Of a stretch of DNA of 64,000 nucleotides, positions 9,671 through 21,392 are shown piece by piece. Numbering within the stretch: position 1 is the stretch's first letter; the number at the start of each line of letters is the position of its first letter. Under the pieces are notes generated by a model. It was not told the DNA's origin, ran no database searches, and saw nothing but the letters and a program-made list of their open reading frames with translations. The stretch lies in assembly GCF_010731895.1 (NCBI RefSeq), contig NZ_AP022596.1, forward strand, positions 5,518,001-5,582,000. The letters run 5' to 3'. A program made the position numbers and the translations under genes. The DNA is from Mycolicibacterium helvum. Its GTDB lineage: Bacteria; Actinomycetota; Actinomycetes; Mycobacteriales; Mycobacteriaceae.

Positions 9671-12427
9671 GTGGCGAAGACCTTCGGGACGATCTTCGTC
9701 ATCCTGCTCTTGCTGATGTGCGCGGGTGATCTGCGGGTGTTCAGCGGGCCGCAGCCACAGCCCGCGCAGGACATCGAGCTGGCCGACGGCTGGCGGCTCA
9801 CCTCTGCGCAGGACGTGCCTGACGGCGGTGCGACGATCTCGGCGAACGGCTACGACGCCGCGGCGTGGCATCCGGTGCGCCGGATGCCCGCCACCGTGCT
9901 GGAGACCCTGCAAGACGACGGTGTCTACCCCAACCTCTACTACGGCAAGAACCTGCTCGAGGATGTGCCGCAGGACCTCTACCAGCAGGACTGGTGGTAC
10001 CGCACCACGTTCACCGCGCCGGGTGACTACCCCAACTACGTCCTGGACTTCCCCGGGATCAACTACCGCGCCGAGGTCTGGCTCAACGGCCGCCGCGTAG
10101 CCGACAGCCGACAGGTCGTCGGGATGTACAACGACCATCAACTCGACGTCACGCGCTGGATCGCCCCGGGCACGTCCAACACGCTGGCCGTCAAGGTCAC
10201 CCCGGAACGGGCCATCCAGGATGTCAACGGCGTCGAGCTCGCCGACAGCTGGTACGACTGGATCAACTGGCGCTACCTGGGCTACCAGGGGCCGGACAAG
10301 AACCCCGCCAACGGCAATTCATTCGTGCCCGACCGCAACGCCGGGATCTGGAAACCTGTGTACCTCAAGACATCTGGGCCGGTCTCGATCGGCGAGGCCA
10401 CGGTCAACACCGAGCTCCCCTTGCCCGATACCAACAGCGCCCGGCTGACGGTCTATGCGCCGCTGCGCAACTACTCCGCCGACAAGGTGCGCGGTGTGCT
10501 GCGAGCCACCATCACCCGCGACGGCAAGGCGCCCATCCACGTCGACGAGCCGGTCTCGCTGATGCCCGGCGAGCAGCGTGAGGTCACGCTCAGCCCGGAT
10601 CGATTCGCGGCGCTTGTCGTCGACCATCCCGACCTGTGGTGGCCCTACACGATGGGCCGGCCTGATCTCTACGACCTGAAGCTGGAGTTCCTCCAGAACG
10701 GCACACCGACCGAGTCCTCTAGCCTCAAGTTCGGGATCCGCACCATCACCCAGGGCCGCGACTCCGACGATTCCTTCGCCGAACTGGGCACCGGTGGCAA
10801 CTTCTACCTGCAGGTCAACGGCAAGAACTTCCTGGTTCGCGGCGCCACCTATACCCCCGACCTGCTCTACAAATACGACCCCGACCGCGACGCCGCGATC
10901 CTCGGCTATGTCAAAGATCTCGGGCTGAACATGCTGCGGCTGGAGTCCAAGATCTCCTCGCAGCGCTTCGTCGAGATGGCCGATGAGCTCGGCATCCCGC
11001 TGATGTATGGGTGGATGTGCTGTAACCAGTGGGAGAAATGGCAGCAGTGGGACGACGAGGATCGCCGGGTCTCGCAGGAAAGTATGCGATCTCAGATCGC
11101 GATGCTGCGCTCGCACGCCTCGGTGTTCGTGTGGGCCAACGGCAGCGACGGCCGGCCACCCACCGAGGTGCTCACCGACTATCACCAGATCCTGTCCGAC
11201 CTGCACTGGCAGAACGCCACCGTCGACACGGTGTCGTCACTGAACCGGGACGCCGACGGCCAGCAGGTGTGGGACGGCATTCAGATGGCCGGTCCGTACA
11301 CGTGGCGGCCACCGTCCTACTGGTTCAGCGGCGAGTACGGAGCGGCCCGCGGATCATCGGCCGAACAGGGTGACAACGAACACATTCCGCCGTTTGCGAG
11401 CCTGCAGAAGTTCATCCCGCCCGACAAGCTGTGGCCGATCAACGACACCTGGTACTTCCACGCCGGATCGGATCCGCAGAACTCCCGCCTGGCCAACGTC
11501 CAGCGCGTCATCGATCGCCGCTATGGTCCGTCGACCAACGCGCACATGTTCGCGGACAAGGCCCAACTGGCGCACTACGAGGCCACTCGCGCGCAATTCG
11601 AGTCGTTCGCTGCCAACGGCTGGGACGGCCACAAGATGACGATCTACTGGATGCTCAACAGCCACTGGCCGTCGTTCTTCGGCAACATCTTCGACTACTA
11701 CCTGCGCCCCGGTGGCGCGTACTACGGCGCCAAGAAGGGTCTGCAGCCGCTGTCGGTGGTGTTCGACTCCTACGCCACCGGTAACCACCGCCAGGCCAGA
11801 GTTTCGGTTGTCAACCAGACTCAGGACTCGCGCGAGAACCTGCGCGTGCGGGTGCGCACCTACGACCTGAAGGGCGCCCTGCGCGACGACCGCGCTTCCG
11901 ACGACATCAGCGTCGATCCGGGTGGCGCCGTCGCGGCGATGACACTGCCGCCCGGGCCGGCCGACTCGCCCGTCTTCTTCGTGCGCGCCGAGCTGCTCGA
12001 CCCGGCGGGCAATGTCCTGGCCAACAACGTGTACTGGCAGTCACGGCAGGCCGACGACGTCGGCCCGCCGGCCAACGATGCGGCGTTCAACTCCAATCAG
12101 GTCAGCTGGGCGGATATGACCGCACTGAACTCGATGACGAAGGTGCCGCTGGACGTCACCGCCACCGGCGGTGCCACGGACGGGCGCGACGTCACCATCA
12201 GTCTGCACAACCCGACCCGGCAGATCGCGTTTTTCGAGCGGGCCGAACTGCTGCCCAGTCCGTTGGCCGACGAGATCCTGCCGATCGAATACGACGACAA
12301 CTACGTGACCGTGTTCCCCGGTGAGACCGTCCAGATCAAGGGCCGAGTGCCCGAGTCAGGACCCTCGCCGAGCTGGGTCAGGGTCACCGGGTACAACAGC
12401 ACACCGGTGGTAGTACAGGTCCGCTGA
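9671..12427 (+). CDS. GH2 family glycoside hydrolase (exo-beta-glucosaminidase/mannosidase type)
   Basis: About 918 residues. GTG at 9671 is preferred over TTG at 9662 because GAGGAG at 9655-9660 then has a workable distance. An N-terminal hydrophobic segment (FGTIFVILLLLMCAGDL) is a signal peptide or anchor. Then come a galactose-binding-like GH2 sugar domain (YRAEVWLNGRRVADSR), an Ig-like domain, the TIM barrel (LGLNMLRLESKISSQRF; MYGWMCCNQWEKW), and a C-terminal beta region. The segment VFVWANGSDGRPP and the later SSAEQGDNEHIPP correspond in position to catalytic regions of exo-beta-D-glucosaminidases of this family. Likely acts outside the membrane on a beta-linked sugar; substrate is inference. 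Confidence 0.85.
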   Translation: MAKTFGTIFVILLLLMCAGDLRVFSGPQPQPAQDIELADGWRLTSAQDVPDGGATISANGYDAAAWHPVRRMPATVLETLQDDGVYPNLYYGKNLLEDVPQDLYQQDWWYRTTFTAPGDYPNYVLDFPGINYRAEVWLNGRRVADSRQVVGMYNDHQLDVTRWIAPGTSNTLAVKVTPERAIQDVNGVELADSWYDWINWRYLGYQGPDKNPANGNSFVPDRNAGIWKPVYLKTSGPVSIGEATVNTELPLPDTNSARLTVYAPLRNYSADKVRGVLRATITRDGKAPIHVDEPVSLMPGEQREVTLSPDRFAALVVDHPDLWWPYTMGRPDLYDLKLEFLQNGTPTESSSLKFGIRTITQGRDSDDSFAELGTGGNFYLQVNGKNFLVRGATYTPDLLYKYDPDRDAAILGYVKDLGLNMLRLESKISSQRFVEMADELGIPLMYGWMCCNQWEKWQQWDDEDRRVSQESMRSQIAMLRSHASVFVWANGSDGRPPTEVLTDYHQILSDLHWQNATVDTVSSLNRDADGQQVWDGIQMAGPYTWRPPSYWFSGEYGAARGSSAEQGDNEHIPPFASLQKFIPPDKLWPINDTWYFHAGSDPQNSRLANVQRVIDRRYGPSTNAHMFADKAQLAHYEATRAQFESFAANGWDGHKMTIYWMLNSHWPSFFGNIFDYYLRPGGAYYGAKKGLQPLSVVFDSYATGNHRQARVSVVNQTQDSRENLRVRVRTYDLKGALRDDRASDDISVDPGGAVAAMTLPPGPADSPVFFVRAELLDPAGNVLANNVYWQSRQADDVGPPANDAAFNSNQVSWADMTALNSMTKVPLDVTATGGATDGRDVTISLHNPTRQIAFFERAELLPSPLADEILPIEYDDNYVTVFPGETVQIKGRVPESGPSPSWVRVTGYNSTPVVVQVR

Positions 12428-13469: not shown

Positions 13470-13895
13470 TTAGCCCACCCAGGGGCCGACGCCGCCGATC
13501 GAGTCGATCCGGATCCGGGTCAGATATCCCGGTGGTGCGTCGTCGGGCGGGAACGAGATGCCCTCGGCCGTGATCATCACCGCGGCCAGCTCCTGCAGGA
13601 GTTCGGGTGCGCCGCCTTCGACGATGCGGGCGGTGCCGGTCACCGACAGATACGGCCGCATCACCGCGCCCGGCTCGGTCGAGACAATGGTCAGCGCGAC
13701 GCGGCCGTCCCGACGCACGTTACGGACCTTCTTGTATTCGGCCAGGTGAGCTGTCACCAGCTCGTCGCCGTCGTCGCCGGATTGCAGCGCCACCCACACC
13801 ACTGACACCTGCGGGCTGCCGTCCGGGTTGATCGTGACCAGCGTGGCATCCGCACCAGATCCGATCAGGGCACGAGCCGCGTCGTTGAGCTTCAT
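13470..13895 (-). CDS. PPOX-class F420-dependent oxidoreductase
   Basis: 141 residues from ATG 13895 (MKLNDAARALIG). The split beta-barrel family is shown by DATLVTINPDGSPQVSVVWV, then YKKVRNVRRDGRVALTIV and PYLSVTGTARIVEGG, the usual order in mycobacterial PPOX/F420 reductases. These proteins bind F420 or flavin and reduce or bind small aromatic or tetrapyrrole substrates. Placed convergent to the transporter; a start four codons earlier is possible. Confidence 0.88.
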   Translation of the reverse strand: MKLNDAARALIGSGADATLVTINPDGSPQVSVVWVALQSGDDGDELVTAHLAEYKKVRNVRRDGRVALTIVSTEPGAVMRPYLSVTGTARIVEGGAPELLQELAAVMITAEGISFPPDDAPPGYLTRIRIDSIGGVGPWVG

Positions 13896-13953
13896 GTGGC
13901 TGTGCAACGCCGCTCGGCGTGAGCCATTCCCGCATGGTCTGGCGTGTTCGGCG

Positions 13954-15207
13954 TCACGGTGCGTTGGCGAGAGACAGCGTCACCGCTCCACCCCGCGGAT
14001 CGACGCCGTCGAGGATGCTCGACGGGACCCGGAAGACCCGTCCCGGCGACGCCGGCCAGAGCAAGGTCTTCCTGCCGACAGTCCTACCATCCTGGTGCGC
14101 AACGACTTTGGGCGTGCGAACCAACCTGTCGGTCCACAACAGCAGCCGATGCCTGGCGGGTGCGGGATCGCCCGGCCGCAGGATGTTCGGCGCGACCCAG
14201 CGCAGCGGATCCGCCGCCTCGATGCGCACACCCGATTGGGCCGGGCGGCTGCCGTTCAGGTGGGCGCGAACGTGCGTGGCGACGTGGCGGCCGTCCAGGG
14301 CGGCGATATCGGCGGTGTCCACCGGATGCAGAAGGTTGCCCACAGCGAAGACGCCGGGCCTGCTGGTGCGCAGGGCGGTATCGACCGCGGGACCCAATGT
14401 GCCGGGATCGATGTCCAACCCGGCAGCCCTGGCGAGCTCGTGGTCGGGAATCCAGTCGCCGGTGAGCACCACGGTGTCGCACGGGACGACGCGCCGTTCG
14501 CCGGTATCGAGACTTTCGATCTCAACACCGCTGACGACTGGCTTTCCGATGATGCGGGTGACACGTGTTCGGCGGGCGATCGTGACGTCCATCAGCGGCG
14601 TCTTGGCTGCGAGATTGAACAGTCCGTAGGACTCGGGCGACGGATACTCGGTTGTCATGAGTTCGGTCCGGCAGCCCGCATGCTTGAGCGTGAGTACCGC
14701 CGAATAGCTGACCAATTCGGCACCCACGATCACGGCTCGCTGCCCGACCGCGCGGTGTTTGAGGTGAACCAGGTTCTGCAACTGTCCTGTGGTGTAGACG
14801 CCCGCGGCGCGGTCGCCGGGGATCAGCCGGGCCGCCCTGGGTCGCTCCCGTGCGCCGGTGGCCAACACGACGGCCCGAGCTTCCAGGGGTGTGCGCCCCT
14901 TCGGCGAGGTGGTATCCAGCGTCATTTCACCGGCCCAGCCGATGACCATCGTGTTGGTCTGGATCGTGGCGCCCGCCTCGATCGCACGTTCGGCGAGCCG
15001 CCGGGCGTAGGTCGGTCCGCTGATGAACGTCTTCATGTCGCGGATGCCATAGCCGGGGTGGTCGCTGTGTCGCGGGATGCCGCCGGGTTCGGATTCTCGT
15101 TCGGCAACAATGACTTTGAGGCCCTGGCCGGCAAGAGTCGCGGCGGCGGTGAGGCCGGCGGGGCCGGCGCCGACAATGGCGACGTCTGCAGTGTCGCTGG
15201 CGGTCAT
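13954..15207 (-). CDS. FAD-dependent oxidoreductase (small, thioredoxin-reductase-like) of GlpA-type operon
   Basis: 417 residues from ATG 15207. Begins with a Rossmann motif VAIVGAGPAGLTAAATLAG, has VLATGARERPRAARLIPG and a second dinucleotide site RAVIVGAELVSYSA, and ends with VFAVGNLLHPVDTAD. This is the layout of the HcnB/OoxA and thioredoxin-reductase-like partners that accompany GlpA-type dehydrogenases. Its ATG overlaps the stop of the preceding GlpA-like gene (ATGA type), so the two are translated together and probably form one complex. The redox-active CxxC of thioredoxin reductase is absent, so it more likely passes electrons than reduces disulfides. Last gene of the five-gene operon. 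Confidence 0.85.
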   Translation of the reverse strand: MTASDTADVAIVGAGPAGLTAAATLAGQGLKVIVAERESEPGGIPRHSDHPGYGIRDMKTFISGPTYARRLAERAIEAGATIQTNTMVIGWAGEMTLDTTSPKGRTPLEARAVVLATGARERPRAARLIPGDRAAGVYTTGQLQNLVHLKHRAVGQRAVIVGAELVSYSAVLTLKHAGCRTELMTTEYPSPESYGLFNLAAKTPLMDVTIARRTRVTRIIGKPVVSGVEIESLDTGERRVVPCDTVVLTGDWIPDHELARAAGLDIDPGTLGPAVDTALRTSRPGVFAVGNLLHPVDTADIAALDGRHVATHVRAHLNGSRPAQSGVRIEAADPLRWVAPNILRPGDPAPARHRLLLWTDRLVRTPKVVAHQDGRTVGRKTLLWPASPGRVFRVPSSILDGVDPRGGAVTLSLANAP

Positions 15208-16589
15208 CGCTGCCTTCCTGAGCAGGTGTCGAAGAGGTCTTGCACTTCTGCCCCGCAATAAAACGCTTGGCAGCGGCCGTTCATCGCCCGCGTGCGCCGC
15301 CGCAGCCCGTCGAGTCCGGCCGGTGGAATCACCGACTGGCACGCGTCGCGAATCTCGCCGTGGGTGACCCGTTCGCAGAAGCACACGATCCGGCCGTACG
15401 CAGCGTCGGCGGCGATGGTGTCGGCCTGCTGATATGGCCGCGGAAACGCCTCACCGAGGTTGGGCATCCGCGGTGGATCAGGCAGTGCGCGGCGCGGTGT
15501 GAGGGTCAGTCCCGCCGTCGCGAGTTGGCCGCGGACGTATTCGGCGACGGCCATCCCCGCGGTGAGACCGGTGGAGCGGATGCCGCCCACCAGCAGGTAG
15601 CGCTGTGCCGGATCGGCCTCGATGAGGTAGTCGCTGCGATCAATTGCCGCTCGCAGCCCGGCGTAGGTGGCGGTGACTTCTTCGTCGAGCAGCTTCGGCA
15701 TGAGCTGACGGCCCTTGCCGAGCAGGAACTCGAAACCGGCTTCGGAGGTGCCGGTAGCAGCGCGGTCCTGCAGATCTTCGGACGTGGGCCCCAGCATGAC
15801 GTTGCCGTAGATGGTGGGGCTGATGAGGACGCCTTTGCCGCGGGCGGTCGGAACCGGGAGCACGATCTTGTCGACCAGCGGGCGGGCGAGCTTGTCATAG
15901 ACGATGAGTTCGCCGCGCCGGGGGGTGACCGTGAACCTGTGGTACCCGAACAGGGCGTCGAGGTGGTCGGCACCAAGCCCTGCGGCGTTGACGATCCATC
16001 GGGCCGTGACGGTTTCCTGATTGGTGTGAACCGACGTGGTCGCCGGGGCCACCTCGATCCCGGCGACGCGATGGTTCGTCAGCAGCGCCACGCCGCGGTT
16101 CACGGCGTCAGTGGCTAACGCGAGATTGACTGTCCAGGTGCAGATGATCGATTCGTCGGGAACGGTCAGGCCGCCAAGGGCGCCGGCGCCGAGATGCGGC
16201 AATTCGGCGTATACGGCTTGTGCATTGACGATTTCGCACCGCTGGTAGCCGTTGGCTTGGGCTTTCTCCAAGAGACCGGGTAACGCATCGAGTTGCTCAT
16301 GGTCCCAGGCCACCAGGATCGCACCCGTGTGTTCGATCGGAATTCCGGTGCGTCCCGCATAGTCCGACAACAAGCGGTAGCCCCTGCTGACCAACGTCGA
16401 CTCCAGGGTACCGGGCTTGGTGTCGTACCCGGTGTGCAGGATCGCGGTGTTGGCCTTGCTAGTGCCATCGCCGACGTCGTCGCGCGCTTCGATCAGCGCG
16501 ACCGACAGCTCGTAACCCGCCAGCTCGCGGGCGATAGCAGATCCGACGATGCCACCACCGATCACCGCCACGTCGTAAACAGCAGTCAT
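15204..16589 (-). CDS. GlpA-like FAD dehydrogenase with C-terminal BFD-like [2Fe-2S] domain
   Basis: 461 residues from ATG 16589. The DAO/GlpA-type FAD domain starts VAVIGGGIVGSAIAREL and includes NTAILHTGYDTKPGT and LLVGGIRSTGLTAGMAVAEY. The C-terminal 70 residues hold a bacterioferritin-associated-ferredoxin-like domain with cysteines in VCFCERVTHGEI and GRCQAFYCG, the CxC...CxxxxC pattern for a [2Fe-2S] cluster. This architecture is that of anaerobic glycerol-3-phosphate dehydrogenase subunit A; the true substrate is probably a phosphorylated alcohol made by the adjacent kinase. Overlaps both neighbours by four bases. Confidence 0.87.
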   Translation of the reverse strand: MTAVYDVAVIGGGIVGSAIARELAGYELSVALIEARDDVGDGTSKANTAILHTGYDTKPGTLESTLVSRGYRLLSDYAGRTGIPIEHTGAILVAWDHEQLDALPGLLEKAQANGYQRCEIVNAQAVYAELPHLGAGALGGLTVPDESIICTWTVNLALATDAVNRGVALLTNHRVAGIEVAPATTSVHTNQETVTARWIVNAAGLGADHLDALFGYHRFTVTPRRGELIVYDKLARPLVDKIVLPVPTARGKGVLISPTIYGNVMLGPTSEDLQDRAATGTSEAGFEFLLGKGRQLMPKLLDEEVTATYAGLRAAIDRSDYLIEADPAQRYLLVGGIRSTGLTAGMAVAEYVRGQLATAGLTLTPRRALPDPPRMPNLGEAFPRPYQQADTIAADAAYGRIVCFCERVTHGEIRDACQSVIPPAGLDGLRRRTRAMNGRCQAFYCGAEVQDLFDTCSGRQR

Positions 16590-18016
16590 CTCTGGCCCTC
16601 CTGGGAGTAGGTGGTGTCGGCCAATTGCCGCCAGCGGTCGGCGAATTCGGCCGCGCGGGTCGGGGTCCAGCTCGGCTCGTACGTGGCCGATGGTTGCCAA
16701 TCGGAGACGACCTCGCGGACCGACTGCTGCGGTTGAAGGCTCAGCCGGGCCAGCGCCGCGGCGCCGAGTGCGGTGGCGTGCGCCGATGGATAGATTTCGA
16801 CGGGCAACCCAACGATGTCAGCGCAGGCCTGCATGAGCACCTTCGAATGCGTCAGTCCGCCATCAGCGCGCAGCGTCGTCAACGGGCTGGCGGTGTCGGC
16901 GTTGATGGCGCTGACCAGTTCGGCGATTTGTGCGGCAATGCCCTGCAGGACCGCCAGCACGATGTGCCCGCGGCCGGTCGACAGCGTCATACCCGAAATC
17001 GATGCTGTGGCATTTGCTTTCCACCGCGGCGCGGCCAGGCCGGCGAAGGCGGGGACGCACATGACCCCGCCGTTGTCGGGGGCGGCCAGACCGTCCATCT
17101 CCTCGGCGCCGTTGATGACGCCGAGTGAGGAAAGCCACCGGATTGCCGATGCTGCGGTGTAGACCTGACCGTCGACGCAGAAGGTGTCGTTGCCGGCTAT
17201 CCGCCATGCCAGAGATGAGGTGAGACCGCTGGCTGAACGCACTCCGGTCTCTCCGGTGTTCGCCAACAGGAAGGCGCCGGTACCGAAGGTGCATTTCGCC
17301 ATCCCCTCGTCGAAGCACCCTTCGGCCAGAAGTGCCGCCTGCTGGTCCACGACTATGCCACCGACGGGTATCTCGGCACCGAATTCGGTAGTGGTACCGA
17401 TGATTTCGTCGTTGGAAACGATCGCGGGCAGCTGCTCGTCGTCGAGCCCGAAAAGCGCGAGCAACTCCGGGCTCCAGTCCTGGCCGCCGAGTTCGACGGC
17501 TAGCGAACGGCTCGCCGTCGTGGCGTCGGTGACGAAGGCGCCGGTCAGCCGGTACAACAACCAGCTGTCCGATGTCGTGACCACCCCACCGGTCTCCCGG
17601 TTGCGGCGCAACCAGGCCATTTTCGGCGCCGAGAAATAGGGGTCGAGCACCAGTCCGGTGCGCTCAGCCAGCTGTTCGGCGTGCGCGCTGAGTGCGTCGC
17701 ACACGTCGCCGGCCCGCCGGTCTTGCCAAACGATCGCCTGAGTCAGGGCGCGCCCGGTCTGCGGGTCCCAGGCCAGCACTGTTTCGCCCTGATTGGCCAG
17801 CGAGACAGCGTGAATGGGGCGACCAGCCTGAGCGACAGCGGCGCGGCCGGCACCAAGAACAGACTCGAGCAGTTCGTCGGGGTCCTGCTCGACGCCGCCG
17901 CCGTTCAGGTAGCGCGGGTGCACGGAGACCTCGGCCAGGCCGACGATCCCGTCTTCGGGGTCGACCACGATCGCCTTTGTGCCCGAGGTGCCCTGGTCGA
18001 TCGCCAGCACCGTCAC
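16586..18016 (-). CDS. FGGY family carbohydrate kinase (glycerol-kinase-like)
   Basis: 476 residues from GTG 18016, whose GTGA overlaps the permease stop. ATP-binding and sugar motifs of FGGY kinases are present: VLAIDQGTSGTKAIVVD at the start, VEQDPDELLESV, SLANQGETVLAWD, AIVWQDRRA, YFSAPKMAWLRRN, the GTGAFLLANTG phosphate loop and TLRADGGLTHSKVLMQ with the adenosine site. It should phosphorylate a small polyol or sugar-like alcohol, and the product would be oxidised by the two FAD enzymes encoded downstream. It differs enough from standard GlpK that glycerol itself should not be assumed. Confidence 0.9.
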   Translation of the reverse strand: MTVLAIDQGTSGTKAIVVDPEDGIVGLAEVSVHPRYLNGGGVEQDPDELLESVLGAGRAAVAQAGRPIHAVSLANQGETVLAWDPQTGRALTQAIVWQDRRAGDVCDALSAHAEQLAERTGLVLDPYFSAPKMAWLRRNRETGGVVTTSDSWLLYRLTGAFVTDATTASRSLAVELGGQDWSPELLALFGLDDEQLPAIVSNDEIIGTTTEFGAEIPVGGIVVDQQAALLAEGCFDEGMAKCTFGTGAFLLANTGETGVRSASGLTSSLAWRIAGNDTFCVDGQVYTAASAIRWLSSLGVINGAEEMDGLAAPDNGGVMCVPAFAGLAAPRWKANATASISGMTLSTGRGHIVLAVLQGIAAQIAELVSAINADTASPLTTLRADGGLTHSKVLMQACADIVGLPVEIYPSAHATALGAAALARLSLQPQQSVREVVSDWQPSATYEPSWTPTRAAEFADRWRQLADTTYSQEGQR

Positions 18017-19533
18017 TGAGTCACCGCCCTCGTATCGTCCTCGCCAGCAGCAGTCTGGTCGAGTTGGGCGTCGATCGACCGCAATTCGGGCATCTTGAGC
18101 CCGTGCACGCCCCGCGTGAGTAATAAGTAGGCGAGGTAGATCGCGCCGATTCCGACCATGACTGCCACATAGAGCCACGGCTGGGTGAAGGACGAATCCC
18201 GGAACAGCGACAAGGCGAGCATCAACCAGATCACGGCGACCACGATGATCGGTATTTCCCAGCGGCCCAGGCTGAATCCGGCGCTGGCGGGAAGCCGCCG
18301 TCTGGTGGCGATGTAGAGGCCAACAGTGATGGTGTAGATGATCGCCGGCAACAGGGTGGCCGCCGAGAACAGGATGAACAGGGCGTCGGTGCTGCTGGAG
18401 AACAACGCCAGGATCACCGCAGAGATCGCGGTCATGGCGATCGTCGCATTGAGCGGCGTTTTGAACCGCGGCGATACCTTGTGCAGGGCCTGCCAGCCGG
18501 GGAACCGCTGATCGCGGGACATCGCCCAGACCAGCCGGACTCCGCTCATCAGGATGACCAGGCCGCACGCAAAGATGGCGATCGCCACCAGCACCAGTAG
18601 AGCGGTCCCCACGAACGACCCAAGGATGTCCTGGATGATGTCGGCGATCGGCGTACCGGATTCGGCAAGTGCGGTCGGATCGTTGACGGCGGCGGTGACG
18701 ACGAGCAGGAAGAGGAATCCGAGCACGCCGGAGGCGAGGACAGCCTGCCACATTGCCTTGGGGACAACGACTTCCGGCCTCTTCGTTTCCTCGGCGAGGT
18801 TGGCGGCCGACTCGAACCCCACGATCGTGAAGGCGCCGAGCAGGAAGCCGAGCATCCATGGGCCCACCGATGTTGCGCTGCCCAAGCTCCAGTAGCCCTC
18901 GGCCGGGATGTCGCCGCGAGAAAACAGGTTGCCCATTGACAGTTTGTGGGCGATCACACCGACGACGAACAGCAGCACTACCAGTGCGACCATGCAGACG
19001 AGTTCGGCGGTGACCGCGAAATTGTTCACGCGCTCGGTCCATTTGGTGGAGAGCCCGACCAGTAGGCCCTGGAGAACGAGAACGCCTGCGGTGATCAGGC
19101 ACGAGGTCAACGCGGTTCCGGTGAAGTCGAACAGGGCGGGCACCACGGTGGCGGCGACGGTGTAGTCCACGGCCACCGCGACGATCGCCAGGAAGGTGAA
19201 CGAGATCCAGCCGGTGATCCAGCCGAGGATGGGGTTGGCCAGTCGCGAGACCCATTGGTACGCGTAGCCGGTCACCGGGATACGTGCGGCGAGTGAGCCG
19301 AGCAGCAGCGCCACCGCGAGTTGGCCGACAATGACGATCGGCCAGGTCCAGATTCCCAGGGGGCCAGAGCTTTTCAGGATACTGCCATATGTGGTGAAGA
19401 TTCCGGTAGCGATGGAGACAAACGCAAACGCGACAGCGAATGATGCGAAGCGTCCAGTTGATCGCTCGAGAGTATCGGTGTACTCCCCTCCGCTTACCAG
19501 GGGTTTACCGGACGGTGTGGAAGAATCTGTCAT
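18013..19533 (-). CDS. APC superfamily permease
   Basis: 506 residues from ATG 19533 (MTDSSTPSGKPLVSG). About twelve transmembrane helices with the conserved APC features: SIATGIFTTYGSILKSSGPLG in helix 1, GYAYQWVSRLANPILGWITGW in helices 2-3, and GFESAANLAEETKRPEVVVPKA in helix 6-loop. This family mainly carries amino acids, choline and polyamines, which is unexpected next to a polyol-type kinase. Second gene of the operon, 103 bases after the DeoR gene. Confidence 0.9.
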   Translation of the reverse strand: MTDSSTPSGKPLVSGGEYTDTLERSTGRFASFAVAFAFVSIATGIFTTYGSILKSSGPLGIWTWPIVIVGQLAVALLLGSLAARIPVTGYAYQWVSRLANPILGWITGWISFTFLAIVAVAVDYTVAATVVPALFDFTGTALTSCLITAGVLVLQGLLVGLSTKWTERVNNFAVTAELVCMVALVVLLFVVGVIAHKLSMGNLFSRGDIPAEGYWSLGSATSVGPWMLGFLLGAFTIVGFESAANLAEETKRPEVVVPKAMWQAVLASGVLGFLFLLVVTAAVNDPTALAESGTPIADIIQDILGSFVGTALLVLVAIAIFACGLVILMSGVRLVWAMSRDQRFPGWQALHKVSPRFKTPLNATIAMTAISAVILALFSSSTDALFILFSAATLLPAIIYTITVGLYIATRRRLPASAGFSLGRWEIPIIVVAVIWLMLALSLFRDSSFTQPWLYVAVMVGIGAIYLAYLLLTRGVHGLKMPELRSIDAQLDQTAAGEDDTRAVTQ

Positions 19534-19636
19534 GGGATCGGGCTTTCTGACTGGAATTGAGTGTTTCGGGAGAAGCGGTTCGGTCCCGCGGGCGGCGCTG
19601 CAACGCCGCCCGCACCCGTTTGCGGAGGAATTCAGG

Positions 19637-20425
19637 TCAGCTGACGCCGTGCGTCGCGGGCCTGGCTGACAGGACCACACCTCCCGTCTCTTCGAAGGCG
19701 ACCGCAATCGACGGCTGAGTGTTCTGGTCGGTGATCAGGCCGTCGACCTCCCCGAGCCCGCAGACCCGATAGGGCGCGACCTGACCGAGTTTCGCGGAAT
19801 CGGCCAAAATGTAGCTGCGGGCACTGTTGGCGATGATGGTGCGCCGAACGTCGATCTCACTGAGATGGAAGTCGGTCAGTCCGGCCCGGGCATCGACGCC
19901 GCCGGACCCCAGAAGTGCGATGTCGGCATAGATGTCGGCGAAGAAGGCCTTGGTGTGGGCGTTCGAGCAGGCGAGGTCGCCCGGCCGGACGCGGCCACCG
20001 GCCATCAGAATCTCGACGCCGGGGCGATCGGCCAGTTCCACCGCGACGGGCAGCGACGGCGTGATGACGGTTCCGGTGAAGCTTCGCGGGATCGCGCGCG
20101 CCACCGCGACCGCCGTGGTGCCGATGTCGATGATGACCGTCTGGCCGCTTTGCAGCAAGCGGACGGCCACCTTGGCCATCTGGGCTTTGGCTTGGTGGCC
20201 GATCATCGAGCGCTCGGTGAACGACGGCTCCGCGCCGCGATGATCGGCTACCGACGCGGCGCCGCCATGAACCCTGCGGATCGCCCCCTGTTCCTCCAGG
20301 AGTGCCAGGTCTCGACGCACGGTCTCGGCGGAGACGCTGAGCCGGCGCACCAATTCGTCGGTGCTTACGACCTGACCAGCGCTGACAGCTTCGACTATCG
20401 CCTCGTGCCGTTCGACCGGGAGCAT
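19637..20425 (-). CDS. DeoR/GlpR family repressor
   Basis: 262 residues from ATG 20425. N-terminal winged helix is typical (RHEAIVEAVSAGQVVSTDEL, then LSVSAETVRRDLALLEEQG, IRRVHGGA), and the C-terminal DeoR sensor domain has VIIDIGTTAVAVARAIP and LLGSGGVDARAGLTDF, expected to bind a phosphorylated sugar or polyol. It leads the operon of permease, kinase and two FAD oxidoreductases and most likely represses it, with relief by the kinase product. Confidence 0.92.
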   Translation of the reverse strand: MLPVERHEAIVEAVSAGQVVSTDELVRRLSVSAETVRRDLALLEEQGAIRRVHGGAASVADHRGAEPSFTERSMIGHQAKAQMAKVAVRLLQSGQTVIIDIGTTAVAVARAIPRSFTGTVITPSLPVAVELADRPGVEILMAGGRVRPGDLACSNAHTKAFFADIYADIALLGSGGVDARAGLTDFHLSEIDVRRTIIANSARSYILADSAKLGQVAPYRVCGLGEVDGLITDQNTQPSIAVAFEETGGVVLSARPATHGVS

Positions 20426-20468: not shown

Positions 20469-20570
20469 AAGTGTGGAGTGTTGTGGAGGTCACGTCAACC
20501 CCAGGGGCGGGAGTTTGGTCATCGCTTCGCCAGCTAGGTGGACCGCGCGCGGGATCGGCATGATGGTGTG

Positions 20571-21392
20571 GTGACATCGTCATCGGATCCGCTCGGGCAG
20601 ATCGCCGGTAGCCCGCCGGGGGCGGCGATCGGGGCGTTCTTCGACCTCGACGGCACCCTGGTGGCCGGATTCACTGCGACCGCGCACGCCAGTGACCGGG
20701 TTCGTCGGGGGCAGGCCAGGATCGGCGAGATCATGGGGGTGATCGAGGCATCGCTTCGGTACAAGCTGGGCCGCATGCAGTTCGAGCGGCTGCTGTCCCG
20801 CGCCGCGGGCTACCTGCGGGGCGAGTCACTCGAGGAGCTCGACGAGATTGGCGAGCGACTGTACGTCGAACAGGTAGCGGCCCGGGTCTACCCGCTGATG
20901 CGTGAGGTCGTGTCCGCCCACGTGGCTCGTGGGCACACCGTCGTGCTCAGTTCATCGGCGCTGACCATCCACGCCGAACCGGTGGCCCGTGCGCTGGGTA
21001 TTCAGCACGTGGTGTGCAACACCTTCGAGCTCGACGCCGACGGCCGGCTGACTGGGGCCATCAGCAAGCCGATCGTGTGGGGGCGTCAGAAAGCCGCTGC
21101 GGTGCAACGGTTTTGCGCGGCCAATGAGATCGACCTGGCGGGCAGTTACTTCTATGCCGACGGGGACGAGGACGGCGCATTGATGGCGCTGGTCGGACAC
21201 CCGCGACCGGTCAACCCGCGGCCGGGCTTGGCGGCGAAGGCTGCTGCCAACGACTGGCCGGTGCTGCGCCTGACCATCCCTGGCCGGCGTAGCGGAGCGG
21301 CGAACGTCGTCGGCCACTTCCCCGCACTGGGCCGAGCCGCCCTTGGCGCGGCGTTCGCGTCCCTTGCGCTGCGGGCCCGCCGACGGGACTGA
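20571..21392 (+). CDS. HAD-IB family hydrolase (phosphoserine-phosphatase-like)
   Basis: 273 residues from GTG 20571. HAD motifs: motif I FFDLDGTLVAG, motif II VVLSSSALTIHAEP, motif III Lys in SKPIVWGRQKAAA and motif IV FYADGDEDGALMALVG. This sub-IB arrangement is found in mycobacterial SerB-like or lysophosphatidic-acid-phosphatase-like proteins. It removes phosphate from a small molecule; substrate unknown. Divergent from the DeoR operon, convergent with the SDR. The C-terminus contains a hydrophobic stretch (ALGRAALGAAFASLALRA) that might bind membrane. Confidence 0.88.
   Translation: MTSSSDPLGQIAGSPPGAAIGAFFDLDGTLVAGFTATAHASDRVRRGQARIGEIMGVIEASLRYKLGRMQFERLLSRAAGYLRGESLEELDEIGERLYVEQVAARVYPLMREVVSAHVARGHTVVLSSSALTIHAEPVARALGIQHVVCNTFELDADGRLTGAISKPIVWGRQKAAAVQRFCAANEIDLAGSYFYADGDEDGALMALVGHPRPVNPRPGLAAKAAANDWPVLRLTIPGRRSGAANVVGHFPALGRAALGAAFASLALRARRRD

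Follow-up and report, generated by a model that had tools for sequence, protein, structure and literature searches.

The stretch analysed here, 64,000 nucleotides of the Mycolicibacterium helvum chromosome (positions 5,518,001–5,582,000; the genome, of 6,400,811 bp, is in one contig; hereafter, the window), contains a five-gene operon encoding a DeoR-family repressor, an APC permease, an FGGY kinase, and two flavin adenine dinucleotide (FAD) enzymes. We give close to an even chance to the reading that this operon serves the catabolism of a glycerol-like amino alcohol as a cassette that moves horizontally, with uptake, phosphorylation, and flavin-dependent oxidation as its steps, and with serinol (2-amino-1,3-propanediol) as the favored single substrate.

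The operon lies on the minus strand and comprises genes for a DeoR-family repressor of 262 amino acids (20425–19637; Pfam DeoRC and HTH_DeoR above cut-off), an ACT-like APC permease of 506 amino acids (19533–18013; Pfam AA_permease_2), an FGGY kinase with a GTG start (18016–16586; Pfam FGGY_N and FGGY_C), a DAO-family FAD enzyme with a C-terminal BFD-type [2Fe-2S] domain (16589–15204; DAO, 211 bits; Fer2_BFD, 36 bits), and a Pyr_redox_2 FAD oxidoreductase (FAD2; 15207–13954; 93 bits); the gene starts were picked by us from the listed alternatives. The APC/FGGY, FGGY/DAO, and DAO/FAD2 junctions are 4-bp overlaps, while a 103-bp gap separates the DeoR and APC genes, so that DeoR may or may not be cotranscribed with the rest. 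Coordinates and families agree with an earlier note on this DNA, which had described five genes in one direction, the last four overlapping by four bases each; the conservation of gene order, for which that note had proposed a check, is borne out by the recurrence of the order APC–kinase–DAO–FAD2 in many species, and the order is thus not due to chance. The DeoR protein is likely the local regulator of the operon, the APC permease is likely the importer of its substrate, and the Pyr_redox_2 protein is presumed to be the electron-transfer partner of the DAO enzyme.

A GlpK-related kinase clade with an altered pocket

The window kinase shares the two-domain FGGY architecture of canonical GlpK, which is often accompanied by GlpF, and scores below the cut-offs of the GlpK models TIGR01311 (419.5 bits; cut-off, 590.35) and NF000756 (380.8 bits; cut-off, 498). 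When positions are mapped onto Escherichia coli GlpK (numbered without the initial Met), all 110 unique sequences of its clade (44–100% identical to the window kinase; those of loci L012 and L013 entered into the tally by tblastn) carry G83, E84, W103, Y135, D245, Q246, F270, and the motif D303-G-Q305. Residues E84, W103, Y135, D245, Q246, and F270 are common to canonical GlpK, whereas Arg83 is replaced by Gly, Glu303 is replaced by Asp, and a Gln is present at position 305. R83 and E303 are kept in 25 of 25 comparison kinases, 24 of which have the full GlpK pattern, and an unrooted tree splits the clade from the comparison kinases with a support of 0.998. Judged by its sequence, the window kinase is no ordinary glycerol kinase and belongs to a GlpK-derived clade.

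Published work bears on several of these positions. R83, E84, Y135, D245, and F270 are identical among the GlpK clusters analysed in a study that describes GlpK as the FGGY group that has stayed unchanged in specificity (PMC3245297); in the present clade, four of these five signature residues are kept, and R83 is the one replaced. Glycerol is hydrogen-bonded by Arg83, which in the Plasmodium enzyme also makes an interdomain salt bridge to Glu306; this bridge is broken when the enzyme is open (PMC2680290). From our reading of the motif, Plasmodium Glu306 would correspond to E. coli GlpK E303. That every clade member lacks both partners is the pattern expected of a fixed substrate change. Gly83 removes a positive charge next to a glutamate that is retained, a change that would fit the binding of an ammonium group.

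The window's own genome contains a separate canonical GlpK. Within the genus, relatives of the window kinase with at least 59% identity are present in 27 of 98 genomes, its own included, and canonical GlpK stands apart at 36–40%. In a protein search, Mycolicibacterium sarraceniae (95%) and M. sphagni (92%) gave the closest kinase records. Some databases call the clade kinase a glycerol kinase: this is the name given by JGI and UniRef, while NCBI has only 'FGGY family kinase'.

Carriers and regulators near the clade kinase

To describe the genomic context, clade kinases were grouped at 95% identity into 103 clusters, of which 9 were dropped (less than 3 kb on one side), leaving 94 usable loci; the clusters are biased to mycobacteria, 37 loci having come from one search with the window DAO enzyme. 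The carriers queried were three APC sequences, EutH, one RbsC, one MFS carrier, and GlpF, at an E-value limit of 1e-15. The comparison set comprised 21 canonical glpK loci (20 hand-picked from the genus, plus L040) in stretches of 10.5–15 kb, with a limit of 1e-5. An ACT-like APC permease is present in 62 of the 94 clade-kinase loci and in 0 of the 21 canonical loci (Fisher p 6e-9), whereas GlpF is present in 0 of the 94 and in 6 of the 21 (Fisher p 2e-5), both tests, uncorrected for kinship, overstating the significance since the loci are kin. In a separate scan at 1e-4 of the loci gathered before this comparison, GlpF was seen only beside E. coli glpK and the canonical glpK of genome G826. 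The remaining carrier matches near the clade kinase are EutH (two loci), a CUT2 ABC transporter (one), and an MFS carrier (one), and one further locus has eutB.

The window-type APC gene is located upstream of, and co-directional with, the kinase gene in mycobacteria and others. Eight loci of family f18 have a second APC type, which is transcribed divergently from the kinase; in loci L067 (10654–11637) and L149 (10816–11823) of this family, a gene for a 327–335 amino acid protein having no Pfam match lies between the kinase and this divergent APC. Close relatives of the window APC (E ≤ 1e-130) occur in 11 of 298 order-level genomes and are located beside the kinase in 11 of 11. The best NCBIfam matches of the window APC are TIGR03428 (208.8 bits; cut-off, 740.45) and TIGR00907 (188.1 bits; cut-off, 598.3), both below cut-off; TIGR00908, which we take to be the ethanolamine permease model, was not among its NCBIfam matches.

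In assemblies of Brooklawnia (L112) and Ruania (L109), EutH, far above the Pfam cut-off in both, is encoded between the kinase and DAO genes. In a third relative (L145; genome G826), a GntR/UTRA gene diverges from the kinase operon and has eutB, eutC, and the genes of a peptide-type ABC transporter behind it. With amine-type carriers (the window APC, the second APC, and EutH) or an amine lyase having joined the core in several forms, the carrier context and the rebuilt pocket suggest an amino alcohol as substrate, and shift the balance toward this class of compound rather than toward any one member of it.

DeoR is encoded beside the kinase in many loci, and a GntR/UTRA regulator in others. Of 19 loci with GntR, 17 have a palindromic operator motif, GGTNTANACC, upstream of the regulator gene, where 0.02 occurrences per stretch would be expected; in L145, it is located between the GntR and kinase genes.

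Several loci show individual departures from this arrangement. A variant operon (L039, 4364–12821) contains an aminobutyraldehyde/betaine-aldehyde-type dehydrogenase (below cut-off), a distant APC, and an FCD-type GntR regulator. In genome G268 (L132, 8180–8640), a stretch between GntR and kinase resembles, by eye, the remnants of an APC gene, and the permease may have been lost there while the enzymes remain. In L131 (7920–10137), genes for tryptophan 2,3-dioxygenase and kynureninase lie upstream of the kinase gene (at 10144) and stop a few bases short of it, and L130 has open frames of similar size at the same place; the pair by L131 was considered as a possible pathway component and judged a chance neighbor, having been seen in one genus, as were thiamine-type ABC genes by L121 and L150.

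A GlpO-like dehydrogenase candidate and its flavoprotein partner

The best model for the DAO enzyme is the type-2 glycerol-3-phosphate oxidase (GlpO) NF033460 (220.9 bits; cut-off, 460), and, among solved structures, Mycoplasma GlpO (4x9m) is the closest to it in sequence. In an alignment of 17 sequences, columns H52, K252, R313, and S339 of the DAO enzyme are invariant. Specifically, H52 aligns with the catalytic His51 of Mycoplasma GlpO, while K252, R313, and S339, counted along the alignment, fall on GlpO K258, R320, and S348, which we take to be active-site residues. Because the GlpO His and these three residues are kept, the substrate of the DAO enzyme is likely phosphorylated. Differing from type-2 GlpO, the window enzyme has an added [2Fe-2S] domain and a partner flavoprotein, which suggests that it is probably a dehydrogenase rather than an oxidase. 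In 89 of the 94 usable loci, an FAD2 relative is encoded no more than 2.6 kb away from the kinase. A GlpO-like enzyme that lacks the [2Fe-2S] tail takes the place of the DAO–FAD2 pair in locus L142, and L140 has an enzyme similar to it by size and match.

Two known glycerol-3-phosphate dehydrogenases invite comparison. The anaerobic GlpABC system also has a DAO domain with a BFD-type [2Fe-2S] tail. The label 'GlpA-like' given in the earlier note is loose, the DAO enzyme scoring 111 bits on the GlpA model (cut-off, 552.8). The parallel that the note had drawn to anaerobic glycerol use is weak, as this score is below the cut-off and GlpB and GlpC are absent from the window cluster, in which the DAO gene is followed by Pyr_redox_2 and then by a PNPOx gene. 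The GlpTk-NOX-MOX glycerol-3-phosphate dehydrogenase is known from Thermococcales, Thermotoga, and Clostridium (PMC11962113). It resembles the operon, by family only, in a DAO-family dehydrogenase and a gene for a pyridine-nucleotide-type flavoprotein, and it has a third gene, whereas the window operon has none. DUF1667, our guess for that third component, is absent from the window's own genome and was detected in the Thermotoga maritima control.

Proposed pathway and candidate substrates

From gene order, families, pocket residues, conservation, and genomic context, we infer a route in which the APC carrier would import a glycerol-like amino alcohol; the FGGY kinase, with a pocket lacking the positively charged Arg83, would phosphorylate a terminal hydroxyl; and the DAO enzyme, having a glycerol-3-phosphate-oxidase-like build, would oxidize the carbon adjacent to CH2-O-phosphate. 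Electrons would pass from the DAO enzyme to its [2Fe-2S] domain, to the Pyr_redox_2 protein, and to an acceptor, and control would be exerted by DeoR or, in other loci, by GntR/UTRA.

Serinol is favored because a kinase and a flavin-dependent oxidation alone could convert it to dihydroxyacetone phosphate (DHAP) and ammonia, because serinol phosphate is the amine analogue of glycerol-3-phosphate, because DHAP can be turned into serinol phosphate by transaminases, and because no further enzyme recurring with the core was seen among the neighbors scanned. Specifically, the transaminase RtxA converts DHAP to serinol phosphate (PMC3222319), as do human enzymes, slowly (PMC9283133). An amino alcohol dehydrogenase of Streptomyces virginiae, dependent on nicotinamide adenine dinucleotide (NAD), carries out an oxidative deamination of serinol to dihydroxyacetone and ammonium (PMC3222319); the operon would use the same type of reaction, but the S. 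virginiae enzyme, as described there, acts on unphosphorylated serinol, with NAD, and involves neither kinase nor flavin. The fully specified route, in which a GlpK-derived kinase would make serinol phosphate or a similar compound and a GlpO-like flavoprotein would deaminate it oxidatively to DHAP and ammonia, phosphorylating first and oxidizing second, and which would be spread across Actinomycetota, we regard as unlikely. If true, it would represent a glycerol pathway re-tooled for the joint harvest of nitrogen and carbon.

Several observations weigh against serinol or any other amino alcohol, the main ones being the kept His of the DAO enzyme and the sugar-type transporters. In GlpO, His51 has been proposed to act as the base toward the C2 hydroxyl (PMC10726252), and the kept H52, taken from the alignment, would favor oxidation of an alcohol at C2 rather than of an amine. 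A CUT2 sugar-type ABC transporter adjoins the operon in L054; CUT2 genes are located beside the DAO–FAD2 pair in L107 and L108, where the covered stretch has no kinase; and a sialate-type MFS carrier (below its cut-off) is encoded by L046. The amine-type context is itself incomplete: 27 of the 94 usable loci have none of the queried carriers, EutH or eutBC is found in only 3, and the 168-bp gap before eutB in L145 has room for a promoter of its own. EutB shows no clear link to the kinase within the genus (10 of 27 genomes with the kinase, 21 of 71 without), and the window's own genome has no EutB match. Finally, G082, a complete single-contig genome from the genus, encodes the Gly83 kinase but lacks a canonical GlpK, its next FGGY match being only 29% identical; the Gly83 kinase might act on glycerol there.

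Partly given G082, glycerol is the strongest rival substrate. The operon would then be a second glycerol system, in which a retuned kinase acts on glycerol, the DAO and FAD2 proteins form a glycerol-3-phosphate dehydrogenase resembling GlpTk-NOX, and the neighboring APC permease has another role. The nearest models and structures (glycerol kinase and glycerol-3-phosphate oxidase), the retention of four of five GlpK signature residues and of the GlpO His, and the JGI and UniRef names all speak for this account, which we nevertheless consider unlikely, given the alteration of R83 and E303 in all 110 clade members, the canonical GlpK already present in the window's own genome, the absence of GlpF from all 94 loci, and the presence of APC, EutH, or eutBC in 65 of them. 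Another polyol or sugar alcohol that contains no nitrogen, such as 1,2-propanediol or a tetritol, would fit the CUT2 and MFS transporters, and FGGY and DeoR families mostly serve sugars and polyols. However, we know of no neutral-polyol carriers in the APC and EutH families, and no isomerase or aldolase was seen by clade members among about 70 hand-picked neighbor proteins, a scan short of a full survey; a substrate of this kind is decidedly unlikely.

Ethanolamine or another 2-amino-1-alkanol, for which phosphoethanolamine would be formed and oxidatively deaminated to phosphoglycolaldehyde, appears improbable. Ethanolamine is used through a GlnA4 route in Streptomyces (PMC6529630). Of the known ethanolamine utilization components (eutBC, EutH, Eat, GlnA4), EutH or eutBC adjoins the operon in three relatives, inside it in the case of EutH and in one divergent cluster in the case of eutBC, and the aldehyde dehydrogenase of the L039 variant would also fit. 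The window operon has neither an ammonia lyase nor a glutamylation enzyme. Against ethanolamine as the substrate, the kept glycerol-hydroxyl-binding residues E84, Y135, and D245 would be odd for a one-hydroxyl molecule; none of the three conserved genes would have an evident use for the product; and the route would be redundant in G826, given its eutBC.

The interpretation given in the earlier note is supported in part. Its proposed sequence, in which an alcohol is taken up, phosphorylated, and oxidized by FAD enzymes, is consistent with the parts, and its suggestion of an amino alcohol, the sole basis of which had been the permease family, now gains independent support from Gly83 throughout the clade, from EutH in the operon in two genera, and from eutBC in a third; the CUT2 and sialate-type carriers of relatives call for caution. 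In open-licence PMC papers, searches on the operon, on EutH together with a glycerol kinase, and on the use of serinol yielded no account of such a system; as far as these literature searches show, the kinase and dehydrogenase families are known, and their combination and the pocket change are undescribed. A monophyletic branch of GlpK in which the pocket change is fixed, the partner pair is steady, and the carriers vary, several of them being amine-type, would depart from the unchanged specificity of GlpK and, if the amino-alcohol assignment is true, would provide an undescribed way to use amino alcohols.

Chromosomal site and distribution

In the window, the operon is flanked on the left by a PNPOx-family gene (13470..13907, minus strand) and on the right by a HAD-family gene (20568..21392, plus strand), both outside the operon. 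In four genomes (G018, G053, G024, and G004), PNPOx is directly beside HAD, with no operon between; three of them (G053, G024, and G004) have the operon at another site. The operon is located at the PNPOx/HAD site in M. sphagni (L078), in M. litorale F4 (L104), and in L099 and L103. In G043 (L063, 8249–12254), the window's site contains an inverted kinase–DAO–FAD2 set without DeoR and APC, and this is one site used repeatedly. In two more distant genomes (L181 and L182), HAD and DMT genes are present, with no PNPOx and no operon beside HAD. The operon thus behaves like a moving cassette, being absent or inverted at the site, or located elsewhere, in relatives, and its neighbors in the window say little on its function. 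As pathway members, the HAD, PNPOx, DMT, and SDR genes on the two flanks were rejected, because they occur together without the operon in four genomes (L177–L180).

Beyond the genus, 19 of 298 genomes of the order match the kinase at E ≤ 1e-100; 44 of 394 genomes of the class match the Brooklawnia kinase, used as query, at E ≤ 1e-110; and 13 of 396 genomes of the phylum gave matches, 3 of which are ordinary GlpK (L073–L075) and were left out of the clade. Holders identified by name are, among others, M. wolinskyi, M. rhodesiae, M. peregrinum, M. septicum, Trebonia kvetii, and metagenome assemblies of Brooklawnia and Ruania.

Bins labelled Acidobacteria, Pseudomonadota, and Burkholderiales (L098, L107, and L108) contain DAO enzymes 67–80% identical to that of the window, and mis-binning is possible. 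In M. litorale F4 (L104, 4187–9373), the DeoR and DAO matches are each in two overlapping pieces, reflecting decay or sequence error. In M. houstonense (L094, 6014–10606), an FAD2-like stretch interrupts the kinase match and another FAD2 match lies behind DAO, so that this locus is either a rearranged copy or an assembly fault.

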